A DNA stretch of 43,215 nucleotides, taken from assembly GCA_014728085.1 (NCBI GenBank), contig WJMF01000166.1:1-43215 (forward strand), in the 5' to 3' direction. Made by a program: the position numbers and the translations under genes. Positions 9,220 through 29,345 of the stretch are shown piece after piece. The notes under the pieces were generated by a model. The model saw only the letters and a list, made by a program, of their open reading frames with translations, had not been told where the DNA came from and ran no database searches. This DNA is from Candidatus Zhuqueibacterota bacterium (GTDB taxonomy: Bacteria > Zhuqueibacterota > Zhuqueibacteria > Residuimicrobiales > Oceaniaggregativiventaceae). Position 1 is the stretch's first letter. The number at the start of each line of letters is the position of its first letter.

Positions 9220-9356
9220 ATAAACGGTCCTCTCTTTTTTAAGTGTTTGCTAACTTTTCGGAAGGCGATACGGTTTCGCATCTTTTCTCTTCCATTCGAA
9301 TTTTCGAGCTGCATTTTTTCTCTGTTGAATGCATTGGCGTGCATGAACACCCTCAT
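9216..9356 (-). CDS. possible leader peptide ORF upstream of the giant surface protein
   Basis: A 46-codon frame begins ATG at 9356 (MRVFMHANAFNREKM) and ends with TGA overlapping the ATG of the 1453-residue gene (ATGA overlap at 9216-9219). It is Lys/Arg-rich. A strong GGAGG lies upstream, but about 17 bases from this ATG; a TTG or GTG in another frame would suit that ribosome site better and gives a 38-codon frame. The start region is inside an 8-bp perfect hairpin (9339-9360). Could be a translated leader that couples or attenuates expression, or coincidence. Confidence 0.25.
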   Translation of the reverse strand: MRVFMHANAFNREKMQLENSNGREKMRNRIAFRKVSKHLKKRGPFI

Positions 9357-9360
9357 GCAC
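9339..9360. promoter_or_regulatory. 8-bp perfect inverted repeat, candidate operator or leader hairpin
   Basis: GTGCATGA (9339-9346), spacer ACACCC, TCATGCAC (9353-9360). It lies 120 bases 5' of the giant DUF4623-like gene and about 330 bases beyond the ROK regulator stop. Size (22 bp) and symmetry fit a ROK-family operator, but an RNA hairpin is equally possible. Confidence 0.4.
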
Positions 9361-9688
9361 CAACGATTGGCCACCTCCTTGATTGTTTATGTTCATGTTT
9401 GTTAAAAAGCAAAGCGTGCCATATCAATTGAAAGAAAGGTGCTACGCACCGCGTTTGCGTAAATGAAGGACTGTTAATAAACGATATCGATGGGTGTAAC
9501 TCAGGTGCGTCGCACAGGTATAGGGGTTTGTTTTATTTTTTGTTTCTTCCCATACCACTGTCAGATTAAAAAGAATTGATAAAATGACTCTGTTTTCACA
9601 CCCCCTGGCCGCGTTGGAGCGAGCAATACCGAGAAAAGACTGTATTGATAACAACAAATGCCAAAGAACACAAAAACGGAATTGGATG
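9361..9688. other. intergenic region between ROK regulator and giant surface protein
   Basis: No convincing gene. Holds GGAGG at about 9374-9378 on the minus strand and two tiny palindromes, GGTGCTACGCACC (9438-9450) and GTGCGTCGCAC (9505-9515). A 71-codon minus frame (9442-9657) lacks a ribosome site and protein-like composition. Confidence 0.4.
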
Positions 9689-10939
9689 CTACGTTGACGG
9701 TTTTTTTTGGTGTTTGTTGTGGATTACCTTGGTGCCATAAATCGCCTGCAGGGCCAGGGAAATAGTGCCTTTGACGCCGGCCTGGTCTCTGAGCTCGCCG
9801 GCGACGATTTTCGTTTGCTGAAAGGGTATGTTCATCATCCCTTCCTTGACCAGACCGCGCACACCGGTAATGAGATAATCCGAATTTTCGCTGACGTGAC
9901 CGCTTAATACAATGACGCCGGCATTGACGGTTTTGATAAAAACAAGACAGATATTGGCCAGCAAAAAAATATATTCGTCGAAAATAGCTCTGACCAGCGG
10001 ATCCCCCTCTTCTGCGAGCTTGAAATAGGCCGCAAAATGCTGAAGGCTGTCCCGGTTCTCGGTACCGGGTTTGCCATTGGGCACATTTTCCATCAGCACC
10101 TGCAACAGGTGCTGTTCAGAGAGGATATCTCCGAGAAACTGCTGATCGGAATAGAGGTGTTTTACTTGTTTTTCATTGATGTAAAAGCCGTTGAGATTGA
10201 GATAGCCGATTTCCCCTGCGGTGCTGAACTCACCTCGAACGATTTTGCCGTTGACGAGCAAACCGGCACCAATGCCCTCGCCGATCCAGATACAGACGAC
10301 GTTGTTATAGCCCTGTCCGGCTCCCAGCAAACATTCGCCCAGAGTAATCGCATTGACATCGTTTTCGATAAAAACCGGTACGCCATATCTGTTGCGGAAT
10401 CGCGCTGTCAGAGGTAAATTGGCCCATCCCTTGAGAGTGTCTGCAAACGCCAGCTCGCCTTTATCATAATCGACAAACCCTGGCAGTCCGATGCCGAAAC
10501 TGATCAGCTTGTCCCTGCCAATGCCGGGGGCATCCAGCATCAGATCAACATTTTCGAACAATCGCGGCAACACATCATCCATGGCGGCACCGGCACGGTG
10601 CGGGATCTCTTTAATTTCAATTATTTCCGAACAGATATTGGCGAGCGCCACTCTGCTGTATTCACGACGGATCTCGACGCCGATGACATAACCGTTGTCC
10701 GCATTGATCTGCAGCAAGCGCGGACGCTTGCCGCCACGAAACGTGGATTCGCCCTTGCCGATTTCGACGATGAATCCGGATTCGATCAGGCGTCCGATAA
10801 TTTCCCATACGGTGACCTTGGAGATTCTAATGCGCCGGGCGATTTCGCTACGGGTCATCGGACCCTCTTCGCGGATGAGATTCAAGAGACGAATTTCGTT
10901 TTGTGTTTTTCGAAGCTGTTTTCCGGGATTGTTATTCAT
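9689..10939 (-). CDS. ROK-family transcriptional regulator without the zinc motif
   Basis: 416 residues. Winged helix-turn-helix at about 15-60 (PMTRSEIARRIRISKVTVWE), then the ROK sugar-kinase fold (about 80-400) with GFGIGLPGFVD-like phosphate region (148-157), ENDVNA (192-197) and the glycine-rich IGEGIGAGLLVNG (219-231). The usual zinc-binding CxCGxxGCxE motif is absent: after GEIGY (242-246, Tyr where the zinc-ligand His normally stands) the sequence runs into a Cys-free stretch. It is therefore probably a NagC/XylR-type repressor or activator that senses a sugar without zinc. It sits inside the minus-strand surface locus, between GHL10 and the giant DUF4623-like gene, and is the obvious local regulator. 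Shine-Dalgarno is weak. Confidence 0.88.
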   Translation of the reverse strand: MNNNPGKQLRKTQNEIRLLNLIREEGPMTRSEIARRIRISKVTVWEIIGRLIESGFIVEIGKGESTFRGGKRPRLLQINADNGYVIGVEIRREYSRVALANICSEIIEIKEIPHRAGAAMDDVLPRLFENVDLMLDAPGIGRDKLISFGIGLPGFVDYDKGELAFADTLKGWANLPLTARFRNRYGVPVFIENDVNAITLGECLLGAGQGYNNVVCIWIGEGIGAGLLVNGKIVRGEFSTAGEIGYLNLNGFYINEKQVKHLYSDQQFLGDILSEQHLLQVLMENVPNGKPGTENRDSLQHFAAYFKLAEEGDPLVRAIFDEYIFLLANICLVFIKTVNAGVIVLSGHVSENSDYLITGVRGLVKEGMMNIPFQQTKIVAGELRDQAGVKGTISLALQAIYGTKVIHNKHQKKPST

Positions 10940-10972
10940 TTGTCGGCTTTGTTAATAATCTTTTAACCTCAC

Positions 10973-11137
10973 CAAGTCGCCATGGCGCAAAGTTAAACCT
11001 GCATTCGAATTATGTTGTCTGTGGTAGCCAGTGGTCGTATATGTCTGAACTGCATTTGGCAATAAATGAAAAGTTCTGTATGATATCATTTCTTTATCGT
11101 TAATCACTTGGCGTCTTTGCATTTTTGTGTCAAGCTA
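10973..11137. repeat. dispersed intergenic inverted element, copy A
   Basis: The left end CCAAGTCGCCATGGCGCAAAG and the right end CTTGGCGTCTTTGC (about 11108-11121) followed by TTGTGTCAAG face each other across about 130 bases. The ends are diverged inverted copies of a 'CGCCAAGACGCAAAG'-like sequence. Similar ends recur at 15105, 25081 and, in variant forms, 27009 and 31775. Confidence 0.45.
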
Positions 11138-11138
11138 T

Positions 11139-13022
11139 TTATCTGACCAACAACATCTTGCGCGTCTCAGATCGGGTACCGACCTGCAATGTGTAAAAAT
11201 AAACGCCGCTGGCGATGTCGGTGGCGTTTAACACTGCGGTATAACACCCAGCCTGCCTGTGTGCATCCACCAGCGTTGTGATGATGTTACCGGTAATATC
11301 AACGACCCTCAACCGAACGTGCCCGGGTGCATCGAGTGTAAAGCGAATCGTTGTTGCCGGATTAAACGGATTTGGAAAATTCTGCTCCAGTGAAAAACCG
11401 AGTGCCTGGTTCAGTTTACTCTTTTTTTTTACCATGGAGACGAACCGTTGCGGCCGGTTGCTGTTCAGGATCATCAGAGCATCAGCAAACAAAATGTGAC
11501 TGCCGCGATCAGCATTCGTCAGGCGTACAATTCGCTGTTTCTTTCCTTTTTCCAGAGCATAATCGCCGATCTTGTGCCAGCCGGAATGACCCTTGATGCT
11601 CTGATCGATCAATATGGTATCCACCCCGCTTTTATGGAATATCTGATATGGTGCAGCGGGTTGCGCGTTCCAGTGATAGATATTATAACAATACATTTCA
11701 TACAGTCCGCTTTTGGGAATATCGGCTGTGTATTCAATCCACTCTTCCGTCTGTGTGTTGGTGTAGATACATCCCTGTTCAAAACCATTGATCGCCGTAT
11801 ATTCCGACCAGCCACTGGATTTACTGACCATCGAATCCTCTTCATTGATAATGATGGCTGGTCGCCGCCAATCCGCTGTGCGGTCGGGCACCAGAGCCGG
11901 TTCCTGATAGACCTCATTCTTCAGTGCCGGCAGGTCATCGGCCAGAGTATCATAAAACCAGATCACATGTCCGCGCAAACCGCGGTTGCGGGTGGTTTTA
12001 ATCTTGGAGATGATATGGCTGGTTGGTACGAGGTAATTATTGGCGATGGTCGTCAGGCCGGGATAGAATTTCGATTTATCATTGACATAGCCGAGCTGAA
12101 CAGTAAGGTCCGAGCTGTATTGGGCCGCGGACGAGCGATAAACCTGGGGCGAGACAAAATCGAGGTGACCTTCGTTGATCCAGGGACGCCAGTCCTGGCA
12201 GAAATTGTCATAACCATACGAGTAGACGATCGGTGCATTGGAAACAAAAACTTCAGGCCGGACGCTTTTTATGGTGTCGTAAACAGCTGCGACATACTCG
12301 GTCAGTTTGTCGGCACGCCAGCGCATCCAGTCCCTGTTGTAGATGGTCTGTGGCGGCGGGTTGCCATTGTGCTCAGACTTGAACAAGTGCACGGTCGCCG
12401 AATCATAACCGCAATCAAGCTCGGGATAGCGAATGCGGTCCAACTCGATGCCGTCGACGTCATAATTTTCAATAATTTCCAGGCAAAGGTCGGTGAGAAA
12501 TTGCTGTGCCTGCGGATTGCAGTGGCTGAGCCAGCGATATTGATATGGCCCGTTGAACAAAACCGAACCGTTGCGTTTTTTGGCAAACCATTCCGGATGG
12601 ACCCGATAGAGATGGTCAATGTTACCCTGACAGGCGACAAAGCCATACTCAAGCCAGGCTTCCACATGCAGTCCGTTGCGGTGTCCCTCGGCGATAAATT
12701 CGGCCAGCAGGTCGCGACCTTGTTCGAGCGCCGGATCGGTCCACAAACCGGTGAGGTCGTGAAATACCTTGCTGCGAAAGTACGGGTAACCGAACCGCCA
12801 GACATCGACGTAAACCGTATTCATGTTATGAGCCGCCACATCATCCATTATCTCGATGATCTGCGCTTTGGACGGTACATTCGAACCGGCCCAGGCAACC
12901 CAAACGCCGCGCAGTTCGCTCTCTTGCGAACGACAGCTCAGCGGCACAAAAAACACTGTAAACAGAAACAAGAATGTGATGATTTTAAAAAGCCGATAAA
13001 CACGTTTATGTCTGTTTTTCAT
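11139..13022 (-). CDS. GHL10-type glycoside hydrolase with golvesin-like and type IX sorting domains
   Basis: 627 residues. Signal region 1-30 ends VPLSC, so it could be a lipobox or an ordinary signal peptide. The GHL10 (glycosyl-hydrolase-like 10) TIM barrel spans about 35-365: ELRGVWVAWAG (36-46), AEGHRNGLHVEAWLEYG (111-127), HPEWFAK, and DGIELDRIRYPE (190-201) holding the likely catalytic acidic residues. A golvesin/xanthan-lyase-like beta domain follows (about 385-520), then the sorting domain (about 545-627: NFPNPFNPATTIRF, ASGVYFYTLQVG, KMLLVR). Export and surface attachment follow from the ends; cleavage of a peptidoglycan-like or other polysaccharide is the family expectation, exact substrate unknown. 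Upstream gap to the next gene is 89 bases. A catalytically gutted relative lies at 29346. Confidence 0.88.
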   Translation of the reverse strand: MKNRHKRVYRLFKIITFLFLFTVFFVPLSCRSQESELRGVWVAWAGSNVPSKAQIIEIMDDVAAHNMNTVYVDVWRFGYPYFRSKVFHDLTGLWTDPALEQGRDLLAEFIAEGHRNGLHVEAWLEYGFVACQGNIDHLYRVHPEWFAKKRNGSVLFNGPYQYRWLSHCNPQAQQFLTDLCLEIIENYDVDGIELDRIRYPELDCGYDSATVHLFKSEHNGNPPPQTIYNRDWMRWRADKLTEYVAAVYDTIKSVRPEVFVSNAPIVYSYGYDNFCQDWRPWINEGHLDFVSPQVYRSSAAQYSSDLTVQLGYVNDKSKFYPGLTTIANNYLVPTSHIISKIKTTRNRGLRGHVIWFYDTLADDLPALKNEVYQEPALVPDRTADWRRPAIIINEEDSMVSKSSGWSEYTAINGFEQGCIYTNTQTEEWIEYTADIPKSGLYEMYCYNIYHWNAQPAAPYQIFHKSGVDTILIDQSIKGHSGWHKIGDYALEKGKKQRIVRLTNADRGSHILFADALMILNSNRPQRFVSMVKKKSKLNQALGFSLEQNFPNPFNPATTIRFTLDAPGHVRLRVVDITGNIITTLVDAHRQAGCYTAVLNATDIASGVYFYTLQVGTRSETRKMLLVR

Positions 13023-13111
13023 AGATTAAAAATAACCCTTTCCGAATTCCTGCCCGTGCAGGAAGAGTACAAAAGAAATCGATTTTGTTGTATTGACAGT
13101 CATACAGTATT

Positions 13112-15076
13112 CTATTTCATCAAAATCATTTTATCTACCGAGACCTCCCTCCTGTCCACGATCAGCTTGTAAAAATAGACACCGCTGCTGAGGTGTTCTG
13201 CGTTAAAGGTCAGCTTGTGACTGCCGGCTTTTTTCTTCTGATCGACCAGCGTCTCGACCAAACGGCCGGTGACATCGTATATGCGCAGTTTGGCGTGTCC
13301 CGGTTTTGCCATATCAAAGCGTATCGTTGTTCGCGGGTTGAAAGGATTGGGATAGTTTTGCCAGAGACGACAGGATTGAATCACCTGTACCGGCGTTGCT
13401 TTGACCGCTGAGGTTGACGCCGTCCTGATTTGTACCCTGTCCGTGTCTGTCGGAAATATACCTCTGCCGAAACTGTCGGCATAAAAGTAATGGCTAAAGC
13501 TGACGCCGTTGCCGAGCGGATTGACATCGGGAAAAGCACAGAGCACCTCGCCGGAGGCGGTTTTTTTCGTCACATATGCCATCATGCCGATGGCGGTAAA
13601 GGCATCGCCGATACCGGGACTGTTTTTGATCGCCGCCAGCTCGGCCAGTTTGTCTTCGCCTTCATCCGCATAGGCCAGGGCGCCCTGGTTGGCCATGTTA
13701 CCATCGAACAAATTTTCTATCCAGGAGGAGCCGTCCCATTTGTAAATGCTGCCGATCATATAATCGGGCTGGTTCCAGGGTTCCACCATATAGACCACAT
13801 CTGCTTTAAACGGCAAGGCAGCTATGCCACCCGCCTTTTCCGGAGGGGTCGTCGATCCGGCGTCGCTGTCAGGGTCGAGATCGAATGCGACATACATGCG
13901 ATTGGATTCAGCGGGATCGATCAGGGTATGGCCGCTGATACCGGCAAAAACCTTACCCTCGGACCAGGTCAAGTACATGTTGCGCTCATTACTGCAACCA
14001 ACGTGGTCAGTGGGAAAGAAATCATTGCTGCCATCGACGCTGATCGTCAGGCTATCCTCGCGGGGTGTCGAGGCTTTGAGCAGTGAATCCATGCTCATGG
14101 AGGTGACGCTGTTATAGCCGAATACCGATATGATGGAATGTCGTTTGCTGTCATAGTCCAGATCGACGGTGGCGTTGATATTGTTGATAAAGGTATTGCC
14201 TTCATAGAGGACATTGACGGAATCGCTGTTGTTGCCAAAGTAATCAAAGGTTATGGTGCCGAGTTCATCTTCAAAATACCTGGCGGTACGTATCGACAGC
14301 CCCCAACTGTTGGCGACGGTTACCAGGTTATAATCCCCTAAACGTAAATGTATAATGCTACTCGTACCGCCGGCGGATGCAAGGCTATCCGGTACCACTG
14401 CGATCACGGTTCCGTCGTTGTTGACCAACTGCGGCGGTGGCGAACCGGCATCGGCACCATTGATCCAGAGCTTTCCCCCGGCCGATACCGGAGAGATGCC
14501 ATGACGGGCGGCGCCGGGTTGCGGCAGCGGAATCGGCGTCATTTTTGTCAACATGGCGCCTCCTTCATCTTTCATCACCGCCAGGGTCGCATTTCCCATC
14601 CCGGAGACATATACGTATTTTTCATCGCCGCTGCCGACCGCCGCCAGGGCGTCGCCATAGCGTTCACCATCGAGGGCATCGTCGAATACCAGCTCGGGAG
14701 AAGCCATTTCATTGACATAGCGGTAAACTTTGAGCGTCGAGCCGGGTGAATATTGCGGTGCCGACAGGTTACAGACATAGATGGTACCATCCTTCGCCAC
14801 ATCGACCATGTTAATGGGATAGGTGCCGCCGCTGACGATGCCGGTATCCAGTTTTCCCAGCGAGTCGCCGGTTGCCGCATTTAGAATAATCACATCAGTG
14901 CCGTATTTGCGCGTTGCCACCAGCACATGATCGGTGCTGCGATTGTAGGCAATGCTGCGGGTGACATCGTTACCCGGATTCATCACCGCATAATTGGCCC
15001 AGTTTAAGGGATATTGAGCGGCAACCATGCTGCTGCCGATAATCAACAGACACAAAAAAAGTCGTATTTTATTCAT
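13112..15076 (-). CDS. type IX-secreted DUF4623-like protein
   Basis: 654 residues. Signal peptide about 1-20 (IIGSSMVAAQ). One DUF4623-like module homologous to those in the 1453-residue protein: NWANYAVMNPGND, TRSIAYNRSTDHVLVATR (39-56), ILNAATGDSLGKLDTG (64-79), and DGTIYVCNL. A further beta region (about 350-560) is followed by the sorting domain (about 575-654: NYPNPFNPRTTIRFDM, SSGVYFYKLIVD, KMILMK). The ATG at 15076 has a good GGAGGA site 6 bases away. It is followed by GHL10 in the same orientation, so binding protein and hydrolase may be co-expressed. Predicted cell-surface beta-propeller-like binding protein; ligand unknown. Confidence 0.85.
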   Translation of the reverse strand: MNKIRLFLCLLIIGSSMVAAQYPLNWANYAVMNPGNDVTRSIAYNRSTDHVLVATRKYGTDVIILNAATGDSLGKLDTGIVSGGTYPINMVDVAKDGTIYVCNLSAPQYSPGSTLKVYRYVNEMASPELVFDDALDGERYGDALAAVGSGDEKYVYVSGMGNATLAVMKDEGGAMLTKMTPIPLPQPGAARHGISPVSAGGKLWINGADAGSPPPQLVNNDGTVIAVVPDSLASAGGTSSIIHLRLGDYNLVTVANSWGLSIRTARYFEDELGTITFDYFGNNSDSVNVLYEGNTFINNINATVDLDYDSKRHSIISVFGYNSVTSMSMDSLLKASTPREDSLTISVDGSNDFFPTDHVGCSNERNMYLTWSEGKVFAGISGHTLIDPAESNRMYVAFDLDPDSDAGSTTPPEKAGGIAALPFKADVVYMVEPWNQPDYMIGSIYKWDGSSWIENLFDGNMANQGALAYADEGEDKLAELAAIKNSPGIGDAFTAIGMMAYVTKKTASGEVLCAFPDVNPLGNGVSFSHYFYADSFGRGIFPTDTDRVQIRTASTSAVKATPVQVIQSCRLWQNYPNPFNPRTTIRFDMAKPGHAKLRIYDVTGRLVETLVDQKKKAGSHKLTFNAEHLSSGVYFYKLIVDRREVSVDKMILMK

Positions 15077-15187: not shown

Positions 15188-15841
15188 TTAAAAATGATAT
15201 CGAATTCCCAGCGACAGGTTGAGTGTCTGAAATCCGGAAACACCTTCCAACTCGATATTGGGCTGCATGGTCGGCCACAGATCGCCGACGATGAAGCGAT
15301 AGTACCCCAGCACATCAACGGCGAGCATGGATGAGAGGCGAATTTCTATGCCGATTCCGGTACGGAATCCCCAATTGGTCGCTGTCAGTTCTTTAGCGTC
15401 GATGTGCGGCACAAACGGGGTGACGCTGGAATCCGCCTCTATCTCGCCGCGTTTTCCTTTCCAGTGATAGAGCCCGGCGGCGATATTGAGATAGGGGCGG
15501 AGATGCTTTGTTTTAGCAATCGCATAGCGTCCGCTAACCAACAGTTCATAATGCTCCAGCAACAGCTCGATTTTGCCTGCCGGGTACCCGGACAGGTTTT
15601 CATGGTCAAAACGGTTGTACGAAACGATACCGCCGATAAACCATTGGTCGTTGTACTGCTGTCCGGCCGACACCTCGGCGCTCATGGCGGATTGAAACCA
15701 GTCAGACAGCCCGCCAACAGGACGGGAATAGGTACTTGCAGCACCGATCGCCCAGTCACCAACAAGCTGACCCCTGCCTGCCGAAGGTATGATTATTAAA
15801 AATCCAAAAAAAAGGATTATCCATCGATAGCTAAACCGCAT
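15188..15841 (-). CDS. outer-membrane beta-barrel protein
   Basis: 217 residues from the ATG at 15841, chosen because GGAGAGG precedes it by 4 bases and a clean signal peptide follows (MRFSYRWIILFFGFLIIIPS, cleavage near GRGQ). A frame continues upstream to 15952 but adds a non-signal extension. The mature protein is built of alternating beta strands (WFIGGIVSYNRF, LRPYLNIAAGLYHW, NWGFRTGIGIEIRLS) and ends in an aromatic terminal strand LSLGIRYHF, the BAM-recognised C-terminal Phe. Small eight-strand barrel, OmpA/OmpW-like by shape only. It lies within the surface locus, 3' of the other barrel; function unknown. Confidence 0.75.
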   Translation of the reverse strand: MRFSYRWIILFFGFLIIIPSAGRGQLVGDWAIGAASTYSRPVGGLSDWFQSAMSAEVSAGQQYNDQWFIGGIVSYNRFDHENLSGYPAGKIELLLEHYELLVSGRYAIAKTKHLRPYLNIAAGLYHWKGKRGEIEADSSVTPFVPHIDAKELTATNWGFRTGIGIEIRLSSMLAVDVLGYYRFIVGDLWPTMQPNIELEGVSGFQTLNLSLGIRYHF

Positions 15842-16113
15842 CAAACCTCTCCAACTAAACATTTTCAAAGGTTTCCGAAACAATGAAAAACCGTTACCAT
15901 AATTATATTTTATTACCTCCAACGCCGGGACCGCTGAGAGTGTTGAATTCATTATTCAAGATCTCTGTACAGGTACAGATCGTGTCAGTAGAACAAAAAC
16001 TTGCACTAAATATTGAAAGGTATTTACTTTTATTTTACTCTTTTCGACTCGACTTTTTTTCTCTGCGTTCAGATCCTTTGCGGTTTTATCATTTTAAAAC
16101 TGCAGAGAAGATA

Positions 16114-16926
16114 CTAATATTTAAACACCAACCCGGTGGTGATTAATGCCTTTGATTTAATCGGAAACCACTTGATCCCATCCTCTGATAACCCGATACC
16201 GAGGAGCGAATCGCGATTGAGGTAATACAAATAATGAACGCCCATGGCCAGATCGATCGAGGGTCTTAAAGTCACTTTTATTCCCATATAGGGTGACGCA
16301 AATAACTTTGCTCCCTTTTTGGGCGGGGCAAAGTGCGTCAGATCGTATTCGAAATCATAATCGAATTTTCCCGTCGAGAGGCTGTCCAGTTTAAAACGCT
16401 TGGTCCAGTGCTCCTGCATGTGCAGCTGCCGGGTAAAAAGACTAAAACCGGCGTCCATACCGGCATACAGTGAAATCGATTTATAGAGCGGCAGGGTGTA
16501 TGCAAATCCGGCAAAAAGGCGCAACTCTTCAAGTCGTTGTGTCGGATTGAATCGGGCTGAATAGATGCTGTCGGTACTGGTATAGGACAGCGTTTTATTG
16601 ACAATTTCCGCGTCGGTTCCGGGCAGGAAATCGATGTAGGTATCCTCCCAATACTGCCACTCCCATTCATCCAGAACATCTTCCTGGTTCAGTGCCATAT
16701 AGTCATAACTGAGTTTCAGATTAAAATCGAGACGATTCGACAGAATAAAACTCATCTGCGCGCCAACGCCGTATCCCTGTGCTTTGCCGGCTTTATAGAT
16801 TTCGGTTTGCGACTGCAGGGTGGGTCCGATGGTTATTTTCAGGGGTATATTTTGCGAAAAGAGCGGCAATCCCGAAATCAGAATCGCTCCGGTAACAGCA
16901 AGGATGCATAACCGTTTCAATTCCAT
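16114..16926 (-). CDS. outer-membrane beta-barrel protein
   Basis: 270 residues. Signal peptide 1-25 (AILISGLPLFSQ). Repeated amphipathic strands (GYGVGAQMSFIL, DFNLKLSYDYMAL, ELRLFAGFAYTLPL, SISLYAGMDAGFSLF, SIDLAMGVHYLYYL) and a C-terminal ITTGLVFKY strand indicate a porin-like barrel. The start codon directly abuts the stop of the PorV-like gene, so the two are translationally linked in one operon with the type IX-sorted protein at 17905. May be a partner barrel of the secretion or uptake complex; no enzymatic motif. Confidence 0.75.
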   Translation of the reverse strand: MELKRLCILAVTGAILISGLPLFSQNIPLKITIGPTLQSQTEIYKAGKAQGYGVGAQMSFILSNRLDFNLKLSYDYMALNQEDVLDEWEWQYWEDTYIDFLPGTDAEIVNKTLSYTSTDSIYSARFNPTQRLEELRLFAGFAYTLPLYKSISLYAGMDAGFSLFTRQLHMQEHWTKRFKLDSLSTGKFDYDFEYDLTHFAPPKKGAKLFASPYMGIKVTLRPSIDLAMGVHYLYYLNRDSLLGIGLSEDGIKWFPIKSKALITTGLVFKY

Positions 16927-17889
16927 CTAAAACTCCATTGCCAGGGTATAGCGAACCGTGGCGTCGAGGCGTTCATGGTTCATATAGGCCATATCGAAAC
17001 CAAAGGCGGTACCGCTTATATCGAATCTCAAGCCGCCGCCGAGACAGAGACTCTCTTCATCGTAGCCGAATTTATAACCTGCCCTCAAAACCAGCACATG
17101 CCGGATAACACTTTCCATACCCAGATGAATGCGTTCATTGGCATCGCTGGGATGAATAGCTTCAGCGACGACCGTCACATGTGTGGGGGCATCATATGTA
17201 CCGTACACTTTAGCGGAAAGCCCCATCTTCAGGTGTTGCGGCATTTTGAATTTTTCTTCCGAGTATTTCGATTCCAGACCGAAATTCTGCAGAAAAGTAC
17301 CGATTCGTAAACTTTTAAAACCGGTATTGTAGAGGAAACCAATATCCGCAATCACATTATCAGCATGATAGACATCGATACTTTCCCGTACATATTTGAG
17401 GGTGGCACCAAAGGAAAATTTATCGGTTAAGGAGCGGGCATAGCTCATCCCCAGGGCGCAGGCGCCGGCGCTGAAGGTGCCGAGATCAATATACGAGCCG
17501 GTTTGATTGGCGGTTGGATTTTTCGTTTTTTCGATTTCGCCGAAATCAAAATAGATGGCTTGTATACCGACTGTGCCGATGAGCGGCAAATGATAGGTCA
17601 GAGCAAAAGCCTGATGTGAGGTTTCCACATACCAGTTTGCATACGACGCACTCAATGCCACGCGCTTTTGCTGCAAGGCGGTGAGGGCGGGGTTGACAAA
17701 GAGACCATCGGCGCCGGCATCCGTGGCGGTAATACCGGTCTCCCCCATCGCCTGAAAACGGGCGGTCACCGGCAGTTCCAGGAAGACAAATCCGGTGGTA
17801 CCGGTTTTTCTGAATTCCCGGGCATGGGCAAGGGAGTAGCAGGCGATGAGCAGGATTAGGGCGACAAGATATTTGTATTTTCTTTTCAT
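16927..17889 (-). CDS. PorV/UPF0164-family outer-membrane protein
   Basis: 320 residues. Signal peptide ends near AHA (about 23). The opening GTTGFVFLELPVTARFQAMG, then ATDAGADGLFVNPALTAL (55-72), is the hallmark of the PorV/PorQ family (14-strand FadL-like barrels that carry type IX cargo at the cell surface). Further strands LGMSYARSLTDKFSFGATLK and LRAGYKFGYDEESLCLGGGL fit the family. It is 15 bases after the type IX-sorted protein at 17905 and abuts the barrel at 16926. Inferred role: dedicated cargo shuttle or attachment factor for the locus's sorted proteins, rather than the housekeeping PorV. Confidence 0.85.
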   Translation of the reverse strand: MKRKYKYLVALILLIACYSLAHAREFRKTGTTGFVFLELPVTARFQAMGETGITATDAGADGLFVNPALTALQQKRVALSASYANWYVETSHQAFALTYHLPLIGTVGIQAIYFDFGEIEKTKNPTANQTGSYIDLGTFSAGACALGMSYARSLTDKFSFGATLKYVRESIDVYHADNVIADIGFLYNTGFKSLRIGTFLQNFGLESKYSEEKFKMPQHLKMGLSAKVYGTYDAPTHVTVVAEAIHPSDANERIHLGMESVIRHVLVLRAGYKFGYDEESLCLGGGLRFDISGTAFGFDMAYMNHERLDATVRYTLAMEF

Positions 17890-17904
17890 GTAGTAAATTC
17901 AGTT

Positions 17905-19929
17905 TTAATTGATGATGGCAAACTTGCCGGTTTTTACCTCTCCCTGTGGATTGGTAATATGGTAATAATACATACCGCTTTTAACGTACTGGCCGTATTC
18001 ACTAATTTGATTCCAGAATGCCACGCCCGAGTCCGGATTTTGATGGAAAATGGTTTTGACGAGGTCGCCGCGCAAGGTGTAAATGCGAATCGTGCACTTT
18101 TGCGACAGGTTGACAAACTGGATGAGTTTGGTATCACCGGCAATTTCAAATCCGGAGCTGCGATAAAAGGGATTGGGAACAATCTTGACCCTGTCCAGCG
18201 CTGATACCGATGGCTGTAAGGTGGTATAAAAAGGAGTTTTGCTTCGATTGGCAAAAACAGACGATTCCAGCGGTGGCACTTTATAAGCGGGATCGACAGT
18301 CCAGGCGTCATGACCGCGATCATAGCTGGTGATCGCATAATAAAAGCCATAGCCAAGCGGAACCTCCTGATCGACAAAAACATATTGTTGCGAATCGGCA
18401 TTAAAATAATCGATATCTCCCACGGCTATGTCGGCGATTTTCGTCCAGGGGCCGAATGGTAGTTCGCCGGATCGATAGACCCGGTACCCTGCTATATCGG
18501 CAACACCCTGGTGCGGATCGTTTATCTGCTCAACGGCATTGTCAAAGGTAATCACGTTGCCTACCCCACCCTGTTGTTTGCAGGACGACACAGTAAACGA
18601 CGGTGCCGGCGGCGACATGGGTACGGTATAATTGTGCCGGTAATTGAAATCAATACGATCGCTCAGATAGCGAACCGCAGAATCGCCGGCCGCCTTTATG
18701 CGGTCGATGGTCATATCCCGGCGCAGAGCATCTTTATAACCCAGCCCTCCGACAAATTCCGCCATGATGATTTTGATGGAATCGCGTCGCGGAATATTGA
18801 ACGGGCCGAGCGAAAAATTGGCATAGAGGCGATTTTGTCCCATACGCTGATCATTGGGATCTGTGAACGCTTCGGACAGACGAAGCGGATTTGCCATGGC
18901 GGCATATTTGTTTTCAAGTCCTGCCACGCCCAGAAACGGTCCGGAATGATCGCTCGAGGGGGCAGCAGCCGACCAGGCAAAGCTATTGATGTGATTCTCC
19001 TTGCCGGTGGAATCGGGCGAAATATACAAAAATTTCAATCCCCAGAAACCGGGTGCTACGTATTCCGGTTTGAGTATATCGCGATCGTTGACAGGGTCGT
19101 ATCGCATATGTTCATGATAATCGAACGATTCATTATCACCCGGTGTCGTCGTCAGATCTCCGGCCCAGGCGACGAGCAGCTGTTCGTCGGCATGGAACGT
19201 GCTGTGCGTGTTTTTTGCCCCGGCGGGATAGTTGGGAAAGGTCAGGTTCCAGCCGCGGTGATTCGGAGACATTGCCCAGGTAAAAAGCAGGTACACCCCC
19301 TGCAGTGGATTGCGGCGCTGTATATTTCGAATGCTGTATTCGATGATGAGGTAATTTTCATCAGCCTGAGAGCCGGACCACTGGCGAACGGTGCGCCTGA
19401 CGGCAACCGGCATATTTTGATTATCCCAGGGTTGAAACCAGGCACCGTTCATTTCCCAGCCGGAATCGATGATTTCTTCCGCTTCGTACGGATCTGTTTG
19501 CAGCCAGTAATTTTCTCCCTGATTCCAGCGCTTGCGATGAACGGGCCTGTTGCCGGCATCCCGCGATACCAGGTAGCGATATTGATCGCCGCTGAATCCA
19601 ACCTCGGTACCGTGGGTGGCAAAATTATCCCAACCCCACACCGTTCCGCTGTCGGTAAGTGCGGTAATAAAAAAGCCACCGGCAGCAATATAGCTGTTGC
19701 TGCCACCAATATTTTCTTTTACCGATTCAAGCTCAAATCCCGGCCAGTCCATACCATAGGTCTTGCGCTGCCAGTCCGACATGGGTTCACATTCCTGTGA
19801 TACATAAAACGAATGCCACAGCTTGCCGCGCGTCAGATCAATGGTAAAGGTATTGTTCTGGGCTCTAACACTTGTAGCCGTTAAAAGAATGGTGAAAAAA
19901 TAGAGTACGATATGATTTTGTTTTGACAA
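17905..19929 (-). CDS. large type IX-secreted surface protein
   Basis: 674 residues starting at TTG (19929), supported by AAAGG 8 bases upstream and an immediate signal peptide (FFTILLTATSVRAQN). The main body (about 30-440) is a conserved-looking Trp/Tyr-rich domain (WHSFYVSQECEPMSDWQRK, GENYWLQTDPYEAEE) of no family I can name. A fibronectin-type-III-like segment (about 450-565: AGYRVYRSGELPFGPWTKI, YYAITSYDRG) and a degenerate sorting domain (about 585-674: VPNPFY, SGMYYYHITNP, GKFAIIN) follow. It is the gene after the big TonB receptor and before the PorV-like gene. It occupies the place SusD takes in Bacteroidota loci; a substrate-capturing partner of the receptor is inference. Confidence 0.8.
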   Translation of the reverse strand: MSKQNHIVLYFFTILLTATSVRAQNNTFTIDLTRGKLWHSFYVSQECEPMSDWQRKTYGMDWPGFELESVKENIGGSNSYIAAGGFFITALTDSGTVWGWDNFATHGTEVGFSGDQYRYLVSRDAGNRPVHRKRWNQGENYWLQTDPYEAEEIIDSGWEMNGAWFQPWDNQNMPVAVRRTVRQWSGSQADENYLIIEYSIRNIQRRNPLQGVYLLFTWAMSPNHRGWNLTFPNYPAGAKNTHSTFHADEQLLVAWAGDLTTTPGDNESFDYHEHMRYDPVNDRDILKPEYVAPGFWGLKFLYISPDSTGKENHINSFAWSAAAPSSDHSGPFLGVAGLENKYAAMANPLRLSEAFTDPNDQRMGQNRLYANFSLGPFNIPRRDSIKIIMAEFVGGLGYKDALRRDMTIDRIKAAGDSAVRYLSDRIDFNYRHNYTVPMSPPAPSFTVSSCKQQGGVGNVITFDNAVEQINDPHQGVADIAGYRVYRSGELPFGPWTKIADIAVGDIDYFNADSQQYVFVDQEVPLGYGFYYAITSYDRGHDAWTVDPAYKVPPLESSVFANRSKTPFYTTLQPSVSALDRVKIVPNPFYRSSGFEIAGDTKLIQFVNLSQKCTIRIYTLRGDLVKTIFHQNPDSGVAFWNQISEYGQYVKSGMYYYHITNPQGEVKTGKFAIIN

Positions 19930-20167
19930 CAGTTCTGCCTTTTTAGATTATGTCGTTTTCCGGAAAATCCAGAAAAAAATAAACCAAGAGGTTGGTGCTC
20001 ATTTATGAACAGGTCTGAATATTTTCCTTCATAATAAAATAACTTTTTGAAAAAAACACATTCATTATTTTTCTCCGCGCAACTCTACCGGCCTTATATT
20101 CTCAACGTTTGGGTTTTTATACATTGTAACCACAAACAGACCCTCCCCGAAATATTTCCCAACAAGC

Positions 20168-20190
20168 AGGATGGGTTTTTGGACCATCCA
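20168..20190 (-). terminator. weak hairpin 3' of the large TonB receptor
   Basis: A 6-bp stem GGATGG/CCATCC just beyond the receptor stop at 20193, with a loop of about 10 bases and no strong T run. Partial termination before the gene at 19929 is possible. The rest of the 263-base gap shows nothing else. Confidence 0.3.
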
Positions 20191-20192
20191 TT

Positions 20193-23096
20193 TTAAAACG
20201 ACATCCGCAACGACAGATAAACCTGACGCGGAATGTTTCGATAGACCTGAAAATAATTATAGAGCCGTACATCGCGATCAGGATCATTATCCGGATCCGC
20301 ATAGGTGGCGCTGCGCAACATCCAGCGATCCATTTCTTCCGGCCGGCTGATCGGCGTCAGGTGCTGATTATCGAACAAATTGAGCACGCGTACGCTGGCG
20401 GTCAGTTGCAAAGGACCGAGTGAAAACGGTTTTTCAATGCGCAGATCCGTTTGCGATTCGAGCGGATAACGCCGGTTGGATTCGACGCGATAATCGAACT
20501 GATATTCCGGCGACCAATAATATGCCAGGCCGCTGCGAATCGATATGATCACACTGGCCGATACATCCTTGAAAAGGATGCCCGGCAAAAGCATGAGATT
20601 TCTGCTGTCACCAAACCGGTAGGTCAGCACACCGTTAAAGCGATGTGTGCGGTCCTCAGGAGCGAGAAAATCGCTGGCCGAATAGGTATATTTCTGCTCC
20701 AGCTCTTCGCTTGTTTGTTCCCGGTCGAGATAGACGCCGTAATAACCGTAATTGGTTTGGCTCAGGGTATAGGAAAATCGATATTGCCAATGGGTATATT
20801 TACGGTTTGAGAAACTGATTTCAATGCCGCGGGAATGGCCATAGCCGCTGTTGTCATAGCTGAGATAAGTACTCTTAAGATCGCCGGGTTTGTTCTGGCT
20901 GCCGGTCGAGCTGTGGATGTAGATTGCCGATACCTGGTCTTTGAGATCATTGTAATAGGTAACGATATCGAGCTGGTGGGTGTCCCATAAATTTCGCTGC
21001 ACCCCGACTTCATAATTGACGCTCAGCTTGGGTTTTAGATTGGGATTACCATAGCTGTTCCAGCCGTTATAGGTCTGATTGTCCAACGCCCGGTTGATGA
21101 TGGGCATGGAGCGAAAGTGACCGTATTGCACGCGAAACGCAGTTCGTTCGCCGATCGGAAACGAAATCCCCAGCCGTGGAGAGAGGCTTGCGTATGTTTT
21201 GGAGGGCTTATAGTCCGGAATCCCGGCGCTTTTGCTACCCAACGCCGGATAAAAGACATTGTATTTATCCCCGGGCACATCGGTGCCGAAATTATAGGTG
21301 TCCATGCGCAGGCCGATGTTGGCCACCATGCCGGAAAATTCCATTTTATCCTGCACGTACGCAGCCGCGTACCATGTTTTTGCTTTATAATTTGTGGCAA
21401 AACCGGTGCGCCAGATAAATGCCGAGACCGAGAGCGATGATGAGGCGTTGTAATCCTGATCCATAAGCCATGCCTCGATGCCGGCCTTGAAGAGGTTGGT
21501 GGTGGAAACCTGGTGGGTGAAATTGGCTTTACCTTCATAATAATGGGTCACCGAGGCCTGATTGTAAAGACTGGACCAGGTGTAATACTCGCGATATTTT
21601 TCATTCCAGGGTCCCCGATCTTCCAGCAGCCGGTCTTCGGGATCAGGATGGAGCTGTACATCCTTATCGATCCCCGGTGTCGGTGTCTGCAATGCATAGA
21701 GGATTTCGTTTTGATGCGTAAATGCCGTTTCCAGATAGGATTTTGGTGAAAAAACAATTTTATAATTCAGGGATTGCGCATAAACGGTCTCCTCGCGCGG
21801 CGAGTCGTAGATAAGCGTGTATTTTCGCTTGGCGCCATAACTGCCCCACAAGCCGGCCCAGCGAACATCTTCGGAGCCCGAGCCCATTCCGGAATAGTAA
21901 TGCTGATAAAGACCGGTAAACTTTAGGTGATGCATTGAATTGGGCTTATAGCTGAGGACGAGCGAGTAGTTGTGCAGTTTTTGCACCTGTTCCCTGGTCG
22001 GCAGCCGGGTCGGTTTGTTTTTAATTTCGCCGGCGAGAAAAAAGCTCATTTTTTGAGCATCGCGCCCCAGGGGTCCGCCAAAGCTAAAGAGGTAACGGGT
22101 GTTGGGGTGCTGGCGATAGTCGTAGACGCCGAGAATATTATCATCCGACGGCGTGTGATTCCTGATCCATAATTTATAGTTACGCCGCGCAGCGTCAACA
22201 TCGACAACGCCGGCTGAATCCTTGAACTGTGGTTGAGCCAGCCAGCCGTCGAAATTTCCCCATTTCTGCCATTCGTGCTGTTGTTGGGAATAGAGATAAT
22301 CCCCCCAGTGATATTTGCCCGGTGGCAGATATTCGACCTGAAACGCACCGGTAAATTGCGAACCCCCCTCTTTGGTCACTACATTGACAACGCCGGATTG
22401 GGCATTGCCGTATTCGGCATTAAAGCCGCCGGTAATCACCTCCATTTGCGATACTGCCAGTGGATTGACATCGTATTTCCAGCTGTTCTCCGATTTAGTG
22501 CCGGTACCATAGGCAGGGACGCCGGTGTTGGTATTGATGCTCTTGATGCCATTGACCGAGTAATTGATTTCAAATGAGCCGCCGCCGCGAATGCTGATGG
22601 TACCATCGGCGTTTTTGTTGATACCGGGCGACAGCTCGAGCACGCTGCGCAAATTTTCAACCGGCATCACGGCGACTTCGGAAGCCTCGTAATGAACCGA
22701 GCTCGACGTTTTGTCGATTTCGATGATGGGGCGTTCTGCAACGATGGTAACGGACTCTCCCAGATCGACGATATCGCTGGTCAAAGAGACATCGATTTTT
22801 GAGGTACGGCCGATATTAACCTGCACGTCTTTGATGCTAACTTTTTGATAGCCCATAAAATGAACGTTTAGAGTATATTTTCCGGGTGGCACGTTGAGAA
22901 TCACATACCAGCCGTTTATATCGGTGGCAGCGCCCAGATGCGTTCCTTCAACGATAACATTGGCGCCGACCAGGGGAGTGTTGGTGTCTGCATCGGTAAT
23001 AACACCGGCAATTTTACCGGTTTGTTTGGCGTGGCTCAGGGTGGTGGCGAGGAGTAGCGCAAAGAGGATCAGACCCTTGTATGAACGAGAATTCAC
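20193..23096 (-). CDS. large TonB-dependent receptor with carboxypeptidase-regulatory domain
   Basis: 967 residues from a GTG start (23096) with AAGGA 7 bases upstream. Signal peptide about 1-23 (ATTLSHA). Carboxypeptidase-regulatory-like domain about 27-110 (GKIAGVITDADTNTPLVGAN, FMGYQKVSI), plug about 120-245 (SVLELSPGINKNADGTISIR, EVITGGFNAEYGNAQSGVVN), then a 22-strand-type barrel of about 720 residues ending VYLSLRMSF with terminal Phe. Size and build match SusC/RagA-like importers and the Oar-like group, yet no SusD gene follows; a type IX-sorted protein does. Expected role: energy-driven import of oligomers across the outer membrane using TonB-ExbBD. Transcribed from the promoter at 23139-23167, so it probably heads the operon running to about 16114. 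Confidence 0.9.
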   Translation of the reverse strand: MNSRSYKGLILFALLLATTLSHAKQTGKIAGVITDADTNTPLVGANVIVEGTHLGAATDINGWYVILNVPPGKYTLNVHFMGYQKVSIKDVQVNIGRTSKIDVSLTSDIVDLGESVTIVAERPIIEIDKTSSSVHYEASEVAVMPVENLRSVLELSPGINKNADGTISIRGGGSFEINYSVNGIKSINTNTGVPAYGTGTKSENSWKYDVNPLAVSQMEVITGGFNAEYGNAQSGVVNVVTKEGGSQFTGAFQVEYLPPGKYHWGDYLYSQQQHEWQKWGNFDGWLAQPQFKDSAGVVDVDAARRNYKLWIRNHTPSDDNILGVYDYRQHPNTRYLFSFGGPLGRDAQKMSFFLAGEIKNKPTRLPTREQVQKLHNYSLVLSYKPNSMHHLKFTGLYQHYYSGMGSGSEDVRWAGLWGSYGAKRKYTLIYDSPREETVYAQSLNYKIVFSPKSYLETAFTHQNEILYALQTPTPGIDKDVQLHPDPEDRLLEDRGPWNEKYREYYTWSSLYNQASVTHYYEGKANFTHQVSTTNLFKAGIEAWLMDQDYNASSSLSVSAFIWRTGFATNYKAKTWYAAAYVQDKMEFSGMVANIGLRMDTYNFGTDVPGDKYNVFYPALGSKSAGIPDYKPSKTYASLSPRLGISFPIGERTAFRVQYGHFRSMPIINRALDNQTYNGWNSYGNPNLKPKLSVNYEVGVQRNLWDTHQLDIVTYYNDLKDQVSAIYIHSSTGSQNKPGDLKSTYLSYDNSGYGHSRGIEISFSNRKYTHWQYRFSYTLSQTNYGYYGVYLDREQTSEELEQKYTYSASDFLAPEDRTHRFNGVLTYRFGDSRNLMLLPGILFKDVSASVIISIRSGLAYYWSPEYQFDYRVESNRRYPLESQTDLRIEKPFSLGPLQLTASVRVLNLFDNQHLTPISRPEEMDRWMLRSATYADPDNDPDRDVRLYNYFQVYRNIPRQVYLSLRMSF

Positions 23097-23138
23097 CGGG
23101 CATCCTTTTTAAGTTAATTAGGCAAACGAACCAACCGA

Positions 23139-23167
23139 ATATTAACAATTTGTAGATACATTGTCAA
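23139..23167 (-). promoter_or_regulatory. sigma70-type promoter of the large TonB receptor
   Basis: On the minus strand, TTGACA (-35, 23167-23162), 17-base spacer, TAATAT (-10, 23144-23139). The start codon is about 43 bases beyond the -10. Confidence 0.75.
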
Positions 23168-23195: not shown

Positions 23196-25037
23196 TTAAG
23201 ATTTGCCGGAAAGATTGAACGGATCAACGATGCGGTCCAATAATAACGCACCCTCTTTTCTCGTAATGGTTTTCCCGGGATACAATCTGCGGCAGGAGTA
23301 TATATCCTTTACCCATCCCTGCTCGAATGCATAGTGTACGGCAGCAATCTCTCGGTTTGACGGATCCACGTCTTCAAAGGGTAAGGAACCGTTGAACTCC
23401 TGTGGCCTGCCCCGCAGCGTCCACGCCAGAATGATAAAGTCAGACCTGGTCAGCTGCGCCGGCAATGACGGCCATACCTCTCCCCCGCCATATCCGGCCG
23501 CCCGAAACGCATCTACGGCATCCTGCCTTGTCAGTGGCTCCTGTGGATGAAAATACATCCGGTTTTCCCAGTCATGCGCAACCGGTTCGCCTTTGAGCAG
23601 ACCGAGCAACCCGGTGCGTTGAATTGCCTGGAAGGCTGGATCTCCAGGGGTAATATCGCTGAACGGCATCAGCCACATGCGGCTATCCAGCAAATGCTGT
23701 TGCAGACAACGTATATCGACGTCGCGCGGATGACTGTGTTCGTTTACACATAACGCTGCTGCAGCGCCGGCCGCCTGGCCGATCTGCATAACAACCGGCT
23801 GTAGACGTGTACAGCCGTTGACGATGTGGGTTACCGAAATGCTCTTTTCGGCAACGAGCAAGCCGTCGACCTGGTACGGTACCAGACACTCATAGGGAAC
23901 ATTAAATGCCGGAATATTCGGATAGGACTCGGTAATGGATGCCGGCGCCCTGTCATGATGATGGTCAAGCGGATAGTCGCCCACGGCAATGCCATGGCTA
24001 TATTTGCCATAATAGTAAGGATCGATGAGCTCCTGTACTCTCAGCGTATCGATACCCCTGAGCCGTCTGGCTTCGCGGATATAGGGTAGATAGGGAAGCC
24101 GGTCGGCGGTTGCAAACTCGTCATCGGTCAGTCCCAAATGCTTCATACCCAGCCGGGTTTGCAGGTGATAAAGACAGTTAAGGGTCGCATTTCTGGCCGC
24201 CTGAAAAGCGGTCCGGCGCTGTTCCCAATTCATATCGATATAATCGACAAAGGTATCGTTGCCTTTTATCGGCCAATTGAGCATGATTTTGCGGTTGGGT
24301 AACCGGCCATACTCGAGCATTTTGCGACAGTCGACCAGATCATCGTCCAGAGAATCCGACAACTCTTTGCACATGCCGGAAAAGTGGGCGGGATCATAAT
24401 CCGGAGGGGCTTTGATGCTCATATCGCGATCGGAATCATATTCTTTCAGGATCGCCACAAAGGTCATATCCTGAATATAGCGATCCGGTTTCTTCGGAGC
24501 ATGTGGTTCGCCGAAATCAGTACGAGCATCCCTGCCGCTGCGATACTCACAGCCCGCCAATGGCAGCAGATCGCCGTATTCGGTGGCATCGATCGTTACC
24601 TGGGCCTCGACGAAGAGGTGATCACCCTTTTCATTGCTGAAATCGACTTCCCGTACGGCAGTTTCTGTCTTTTGCACGGCAACGGGCCGATAGCCGAAAC
24701 GAACGCTGATATTGGGCTGTTCGTCAACCATCTGCTGAAATATCGCATTACCCACTTTAGGTTCGAAAAGGGTATGACTGACCCAGCCGGTTTCAACGGC
24801 CTGCTGGCCGCCATAATGCTCGTACAATCTCTGTCGAAATTCTCCCCACAATCCGGAGGGCAGGTTGTGATTGCCGTCGATGGCGCTGACTCCGGCAGAC
24901 GTCAGCATGCCGCCGAGCCAGGGCGTCTCTTCAACCAGAAGAACCTTTACTCCCATCCGCACCGCCTGAATCGCAGCACAAACACCGCTTGCCCCCCCTC
25001 CTGCGATCAATAAATCCGTTTTCAGCTTTTCATGCAT
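23196..25037 (-). CDS. FAD-dependent oxidoreductase with C-terminal SLH-like repeats
   Basis: 613 residues. N-terminal FAD-binding Rossmann motif LLIAGGGASGVCAAIQA (8-25) with LLVEETPWLGGMLTSAG, the style of the FAD_oxidored (PF12831) family; ATEYGDLLPLAG and the C-terminal NGCTRLQPVVMQIGQAAGAA complete the flavoprotein core (to about 455). From about 465 come SLH-like repeats: YFHPQEPLTRQDAVDAFRAA, then LPFEDVDPSNREIA with YPGKTITRKEGALLLDRIV. There is no signal peptide. AGAGG lies 5 bases before the ATG. Divergent from the transporter at 25514. Substrate is unknown; the family oxidises diverse sugars and organic acids. SLH-type repeats on an apparently unexported flavoenzyme are odd and may just be a helical lid. 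Confidence 0.85.
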   Translation of the reverse strand: MHEKLKTDLLIAGGGASGVCAAIQAVRMGVKVLLVEETPWLGGMLTSAGVSAIDGNHNLPSGLWGEFRQRLYEHYGGQQAVETGWVSHTLFEPKVGNAIFQQMVDEQPNISVRFGYRPVAVQKTETAVREVDFSNEKGDHLFVEAQVTIDATEYGDLLPLAGCEYRSGRDARTDFGEPHAPKKPDRYIQDMTFVAILKEYDSDRDMSIKAPPDYDPAHFSGMCKELSDSLDDDLVDCRKMLEYGRLPNRKIMLNWPIKGNDTFVDYIDMNWEQRRTAFQAARNATLNCLYHLQTRLGMKHLGLTDDEFATADRLPYLPYIREARRLRGIDTLRVQELIDPYYYGKYSHGIAVGDYPLDHHHDRAPASITESYPNIPAFNVPYECLVPYQVDGLLVAEKSISVTHIVNGCTRLQPVVMQIGQAAGAAAALCVNEHSHPRDVDIRCLQQHLLDSRMWLMPFSDITPGDPAFQAIQRTGLLGLLKGEPVAHDWENRMYFHPQEPLTRQDAVDAFRAAGYGGGEVWPSLPAQLTRSDFIILAWTLRGRPQEFNGSLPFEDVDPSNREIAAVHYAFEQGWVKDIYSCRRLYPGKTITRKEGALLLDRIVDPFNLSGKS

Positions 25038-29289: not shown

Positions 29290-29345
29290 TAACCGTTGAT
29301 CGTACAGTTACTGACCAGACAAAAACTCGTGTGGAGAACCTGATA

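Follow-up and report, generated by a model that had tools for sequence, protein, structure and literature searches.

A recurrent gene trio of a TonB-dependent receptor, a type IX CTD protein and a PorV/PorQ-family barrel in Candidatus Zhuqueibacterota and other phyla

SusC-SusD pairs are the textbook importers of the superphylum that includes Candidatus Zhuqueibacterota, and despite this many genomes of the phylum hold no detectable SusD. Which surface protein could partner a large TonB-dependent receptor in such a genome is a question raised by one gene cluster in contig WJMF01000166.1 (assembly GCA_014728085.1), whose 43,215 analysed nucleotides are referred to here as the window. A sequence-only reading of the window had proposed that a SusC-like receptor is joined there by a type IX-sorted protein in the place of SusD, by a PorV-like barrel and by two porin-like barrels, together forming an alternative import complex. 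Here we examine this proposal in the window, in the host genome (5.19 Mb, 98% complete, KSB1 lineage) and in genomes of the same and other phyla.

The cluster consists of five open frames, all on the minus strand: a TonB-dependent receptor (T), a type IX CTD protein (S), a PorV/PorQ-family barrel (V) and two barrels of 270 and 254 aa. Their positions, and those of the motifs discussed below, are as follows.

23167-23139, minus strand: promoter-like site, TTGACA-17-TAATAT with TG ahead of the -10, a consensus match only
20193-23096, minus strand: T, TonB-dependent receptor, 967 aa, start GTG; CarboxypepD_reg-like N-terminal extension, TonB-box-like motif, Plug, and barrel with terminal Phe
22731-22760, minus strand: TonB-box-like motif GESVTIVAER, T residues 113-122, between the N-terminal extension and the Plug
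17905-19929, minus strand: S, surface protein, 674 aa, start TTG; signal peptide ends ...SVRAQ
17908-18204, minus strand: CTD of S, residues 576-674; trio-specific class with a near-C-terminal Lys (TGKFAIIN)
16927-17889, minus strand: V, PorV/PorQ-family outer-membrane barrel, 320 aa; 15-base gap from the S stop
16114-16926, minus strand: accessory barrel-like protein, 270 aa; its ATG abuts the V stop (TAG/ATG)
15188-15952, minus strand: accessory outer-membrane barrel, 254 aa; PF13505 at 3.7e-6

Gene order and spacings agree with the earlier description, including the 15 bases between S and V, the ATG that abuts the V stop and the further barrel behind it. T and S lie 263 bases apart, a distance that is only 8-54 bases in most other copies. 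A single promoter had been said to drive the genes from T onward; the site is present and among the best-scoring in the region, and it is plausible only, because TTGACA/TAATAT-type sites are no more frequent there than in shuffled sequence (16 against 13.6 +/- 3.8).

TonB-dependent receptors carry a TonB box, a Plug and a 22-stranded barrel. T matches such receptors in the PDB, and it has both the Plug and a TonB-box-like motif; its domains by Pfam are PF13715 (6.4e-19) and PF07715 (Plug, 1.7e-8). The motif GESVTIVAER, which we take to resemble TonB boxes, has a similar motif aligned with it throughout the 14 host copies of T, and a pattern search finds it in 8 of the 14. The description of T as SusC-like was rejected: against the SusC/RagA model TIGR04056 it scores 66 bits where the cut-off is 368.25, and the best E value among the host copies is 1.9e-21. 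SusD-adjacent receptors of the same phylum score 528-901 bits with that model (7 of 7 tested) and are weak matches to the trio receptor profile, at 60-120 bits in most loci. A FastTree phylogeny of 67 receptors placed the 12 SusC proteins in one clade (support 100) and the trio receptors in another (99), with other receptors of the host genome outside both; L335b, which falls within the trio clade, likewise belongs to a trio. The finer branching order is unsure because of long branches. On this basis we assign T to a receptor clade that is separate from SusC and has a partner of its own.

SusD_RagB (PF07980) and SusD-like_2 (PF12771) were not detected in the host genome, in a search that did detect its positive control. 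Of 68 genomes from the phylum, 26 have SusD_RagB, and there it lies beside a true SusC and not beside a T-type receptor; a SusD adjoining other copies of T, combined with a predicted complex that lacks an interface, had been named as one finding that would speak against the proposal. SusD proteins have a helical fold and a lipobox; S itself matched no SusD family, it has a Sec signal without a lipobox Cys, and the model of a relative is rich in beta strands. In every cluster of the host genome with a T-clade receptor, the partner is S and not a SusD/RagB lipoprotein. Since T is not SusC-like, S is no simple replacement for SusD on a SusC, as had been supposed; it accompanies a receptor of another clade.

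S is predicted to comprise a Sec signal, an undescribed N-terminal region, an Fn3-like region and a type IX CTD. The N-terminal region belongs to no family in Pfam or NCBIfam. The earlier identification of S as a type IX-sorted protein stands as far as the general features go: Sec signal, C-terminal beta-sandwich and near-C-terminal Lys are present, and SprA is encoded in the genome. It does not extend to membership of type A by score, since the CTD reaches 20.3 bits with TIGR04183, below the cut-off of 23, and is best matched by the PorZ and PorU models. The near-C-terminal Lys, a feature of type A CTDs (PMC10994853), is retained in most S copies. Compared with solved structures, the trio CTD profile matched PorZ (E 0.0017) and PorU (0.035). 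AlphaFold modelled the CTD of the window S as a high-confidence beta-sandwich (pLDDT 86-96 for residues 601-674), and Foldseek returned PorZ as the best match (3.8e-5) with PorU third; this model used 40 distant relatives and is good for the CTD only, so the Foldseek result informs on the CTD only. The N-terminal body was modelled with a mean pLDDT of 47. A relative of S from locus L242 (1181 aa) reached a pLDDT of 74 and is predicted to be beta-strand-rich, and Foldseek of that model gave only generic multi-beta-sandwich matches with query TM < 0.1, and no SusD or known binding fold. Ligand binding by S is therefore unsupported, because the body of the window protein is unmodelled and the matches of its relative are generic.

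HMM profiles separate the trio CTDs from the ordinary CTDs that occur in the same genomes. When the host genome is set aside, 106 of 114 genes with a trio-type CTD have T and/or V as a neighbour (both in 85), against 0 of 96 genes with ordinary CTDs, the latter count being partly positional because the loci were fetched through S. Within the host genome, three genes with ordinary CTDs are followed by a PorV-family gene. The barrels PorV and PorQ anchor PorZ and PorU on the cell surface, and the PorZ CTD is uncleaved (PMC8545088). As judged from profiles and modelled fold, S-type CTDs are a class of their own, most like the CTDs of the surface-retained PorZ and PorU.

V was correctly placed in the PorV family, with 176.9 bits to the PorV/PorQ-family model NF033709 (cut-off 90, E 7.7e-52). 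With NF033710, the equivalog model of the general shuttle PorV, it scores 81 bits, under the cut-off of 250, and it is nearer to PorQ than to general PorV. The V profile matches the PorV of F. johnsoniae (6h3i) at E 6.7e-33. Type A CTDs have been described as all served by one PorV, and dedicated carriers have been described for type B CTDs (PMC12618676, PMC9143113). The host genome encodes SprA and a PorU sortase (910 bits) and, at C99 beside an M6i protein, a separate canonical-like PorV (233 of 250 bits with NF033710), so that the dedicated V copies are accompanied by a type IX system of the general kind. Two further arrangements of PorV-like genes were seen. One subfamily (L122, L123, L133-L136 and L161) has a second, longer PorV-like barrel, of ~500 aa where complete, directly after V; locus L062 (C157), at 8178-11505, has two PorV-like genes and a CTD protein, with no receptor nearby.

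The two trailing barrels of the window are present as described; as core parts of the system they were rejected, and they count here as accessory genes outside the conserved unit. The 254-aa barrel scores just under the OMP_b-brl cut-off (27.7 against 28.7), and no family was found for the 270-aa barrel. The other trios of the host genome gave no homologues, though a weak homologue of the 270-aa barrel lies directly after V in L356 (1-549; another phylum), and weak homologues of both stand in tandem behind another gene in L328 (12547-13972; a Kryptonium genome).

The profiles used derive from copies in the host genome itself. In that genome 25 S-like places and about 24 PorV-family genes above the cut-off were found, many of them adjacent. 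It has 15 T-clade receptors, each in a cluster with S and V. By automated count, with contig ends set aside and neighbours taken over all frames, T immediately precedes S in 13 of 15 cases and V immediately follows S in 13 of 16. Two clusters are rearranged (C117, S-c-x-T-V; C27, T-S-V-V-T-S). The receptor on C206, an apparent exception in the receptor tree, is included in the 15: 43 nt behind it begins an S gene that the end of the contig truncates and that continues on C119 with its V. Two other arrangements were observed in the wider set of loci. The order S, ordinary CTD protein, T recurs in the host and in other phyla (L064, L138, L140, L318, L319 and L328), with V after T in several; three tandem S genes occur in L149 and L150, and in L149 they stand behind T and V, an order that would suit a single receptor served by several capture proteins.

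The S family was found in 25 of 25 near relatives (host genome counted) and in 68 of 69 genomes of the phylum. Of 49 copies in the relatives, 40 have T ahead of S and 31 have V behind it; in short loci from the phylum of genome G077 V follows S in 9 of 20. The copies without V are mostly T-S pairs, in tandem among the relatives. A wider locus scan, which used the 1270-aa (C198-type) S subfamily, reached genomes whose record titles name KSB1, Neomarinimicrobiota, Ignavibacteria, Kryptonia, Calditrichota/Caldithrix, Chlorobi, Bacteroidetes MAGs and one Gemmatimonadota. In its loci T immediately precedes S in 68 of 71 cases and V comes immediately behind S in 62 of 65; the median gaps are 0 and 7.5 nt. 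Several matches were obtained in each of the 16 named genomes that were searched, and most gave further trios. In the phylum of genome G077, S was present in 71 of 148 sampled genomes, and T, S and V lie inside short flanks in 10 of the 11 best loci. Kryptonia have counterparts of the window trio itself in the same order, with identities of 43% for T, 41-42% for S and 44-45% for V. Conservation in relatives, on which the earlier proposal had been made to depend, is thus found and extends far beyond them, across phyla. The trio is more than a chance grouping, because it recurs ~15 times in one genome and again across phyla. The conserved unit is the three genes T-S-V, and their linkage is established.

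Over 84 trios, the pairwise distances of the three proteins are correlated with one another (r 0.83-0.84), as is expected of a unit inherited together. Partial Mantel tests, which are prone to false positives and are based here on 12-19 modules, gave a finer division. Among 12 host copies, the CTD follows V given T (r 0.505, 0/999) and not T given V (0.078, 342/999), and the N-terminal part of S follows T given V (0.559, 0/999). Among 19 divergent representatives, with the third partner held constant, the values are 0.352 for CTD and V, -0.003 for CTD and T, and 0.362 for the N-terminal part and T. The N-terminal part also tracks V, at 0.439 and 0.36 in the two sets, third partner constant. 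These results lend indirect support to a pairing in which the CTD would go with V and the body of S with T.

From the conserved unit, the CTD class, the correlated divergence and the type IX machinery we infer a physical complex with docking of the CTD on V, retention of S by V, capture of a ligand and import. S would leave the cytoplasm by Sec and then pass the type IX translocon (SprA), with the CTD as signal. A dedicated V, and not the general PorV, would pick it up by the CTD and would remain with it as an anchor, a role that PorV/PorQ barrels have for PorU and PorZ, and SprF for SprB. The extracellular body of S would be set over T as a capture protein or lid, and T would import the ligand across the membrane with TonB energy. 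That T-S-V works in this way as a single uptake unit of the outer membrane, alongside SusC-SusD and distinct from it, with S held by V and partner of T, is in our judgement evenly poised between being right and being wrong. Against it count the copies without an adjacent V, among both the relatives and the short phylum loci, and the PorU sortase of the genome, which could cleave S off V. The broader claim, of a general class of outer-membrane importers that is independent of SusC-SusD and widespread in KSB1, Neomarinimicrobiota, Ignavibacteria, Kryptonia and relatives, has in our view a similarly even chance.

The gene linkage could also arise if S were ordinary type IX cargo, an enzyme or a binding protein secreted with the help of a PorV-like shuttle of its own, and T an importer that forms no complex with it and is co-regulated because it takes up whatever S releases or captures. 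Dedicated cargo-carrier pairs encoded by adjacent genes are known from type B CTDs and SprF (PMC12618676), S might be cleaved off V because the genome has the PorU sortase, and several S genes in some operons, or the rearranged order S-c-x-T-V, would suit such an arrangement. It accounts less well for the receptor clade specific to S partners, for a T-S adjacency that in some subfamilies is tighter and more constant than that of S and V, for S body distances that follow T independently of V, and for a CTD nearest to those of the retained PorZ and PorU; we regard it as a less probable, though serious, explanation.

Two other explanations change the part played by V or T. V might be a FadL-like channel for hydrophobic compounds and no cargo carrier, with T, S and V as parallel parts of the uptake of such compounds. 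The V profile does match the FadL-family proteins TodX/TbuX (E 1.9e-5 and weaker), but PorV is far closer, NF033709 is exceeded, and V adjoins one specific CTD class and diverges together with it, so that we find this role improbable. We likewise see little likelihood that T is not mainly an importer and uses TonB energy for signalling or for the handling of S (release, retraction or assembly): the carboxypeptidase-regulatory-like N-terminal extension is found in receptors of several roles and the ligand of T is not known, yet 15 divergent copies in one genome better fit a set of uptake specificities, and the architecture of T is complete, with TonB-box-like motif and Plug.

If T-S-V is an uptake unit, it resembles several known systems in part; no description of it was found in open-access papers. 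With SusC-SusD importers and utilisomes (PMC7618045) it shares a TonB-dependent barrel with a carboxypeptidase-like N-terminal extension, an operon-paired surface partner and many paralogues per genome. It differs in a receptor that lies in a separate clade outside the SusC/RagA family, in a partner that is a type IX CTD protein, predicted to be beta-strand-rich where modelled, and not a SusD lipoprotein, and in the added PorV/PorQ-like barrel; the additional surface proteins carried by SusCD units are lipoproteins (PMC7618045). In BtuB-BtuG of Bacteroides (PMC10404256) a non-SusD surface protein is the lid of a TonB-dependent transporter, as is proposed for S, but BtuG is a lipoprotein and has no carrier barrel, whereas S has a type IX CTD and lacks a lipobox. 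The PorU/PorZ and PorV/PorQ attachment complex (PMC8545088), whose CTDs are those most like that of S, offers the precedent for a CTD protein on a PorV/PorQ-family barrel, the arrangement proposed for S and V; its members are sortase machinery without a TonB receptor partner, whereas T-S-V is a multi-copy set found in receptor operons. Pairs of a type B CTD protein and PorP/SprF, such as SprB-SprF (PMC12618676, PMC9143113), likewise have the carrier or anchor gene directly downstream and many cognate pairs per genome, a likeness that for S and V rests on adjacency and correlated divergence. There the carrier is of the PorP/SprF family and the CTD of type B; T-S-V has a PorV/PorQ-family barrel and a type-A-like CTD, plus a receptor.

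Were the model correct, the uptake of large or scarce nutrients by abundant uncultured phyla would be explained by a second receptor-partner system present in multiple copies, and many unannotated CTD proteins and PorV paralogues would gain a role. The type IX system would then reach beyond secretion to the assembly of transporters, and the rule of one PorV for all type A-like CTDs would be broken.

Several other genes of the window were noted. Directly upstream of T, at 23196-25037 on the minus strand, lies an FAD-dependent oxidoreductase (PF12831, 1e-104) whose C-terminal part appears SLH-like by eye. Downstream of the trio, at 11139-15076 on the minus strand, are two type IX cargo proteins with ordinary type A CTDs: one (11139-13022) with a GHL10 glycosyl hydrolase and a Golvesin_C domain, the other (13112-15076) of 654 aa. 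The pair of GHL10 and Golvesin_C is found again at 29331-30374 on the plus strand. A second TonB-dependent receptor, at 82-2448 on the minus strand (788 aa), is of the ordinary type and falls outside the trio clade.
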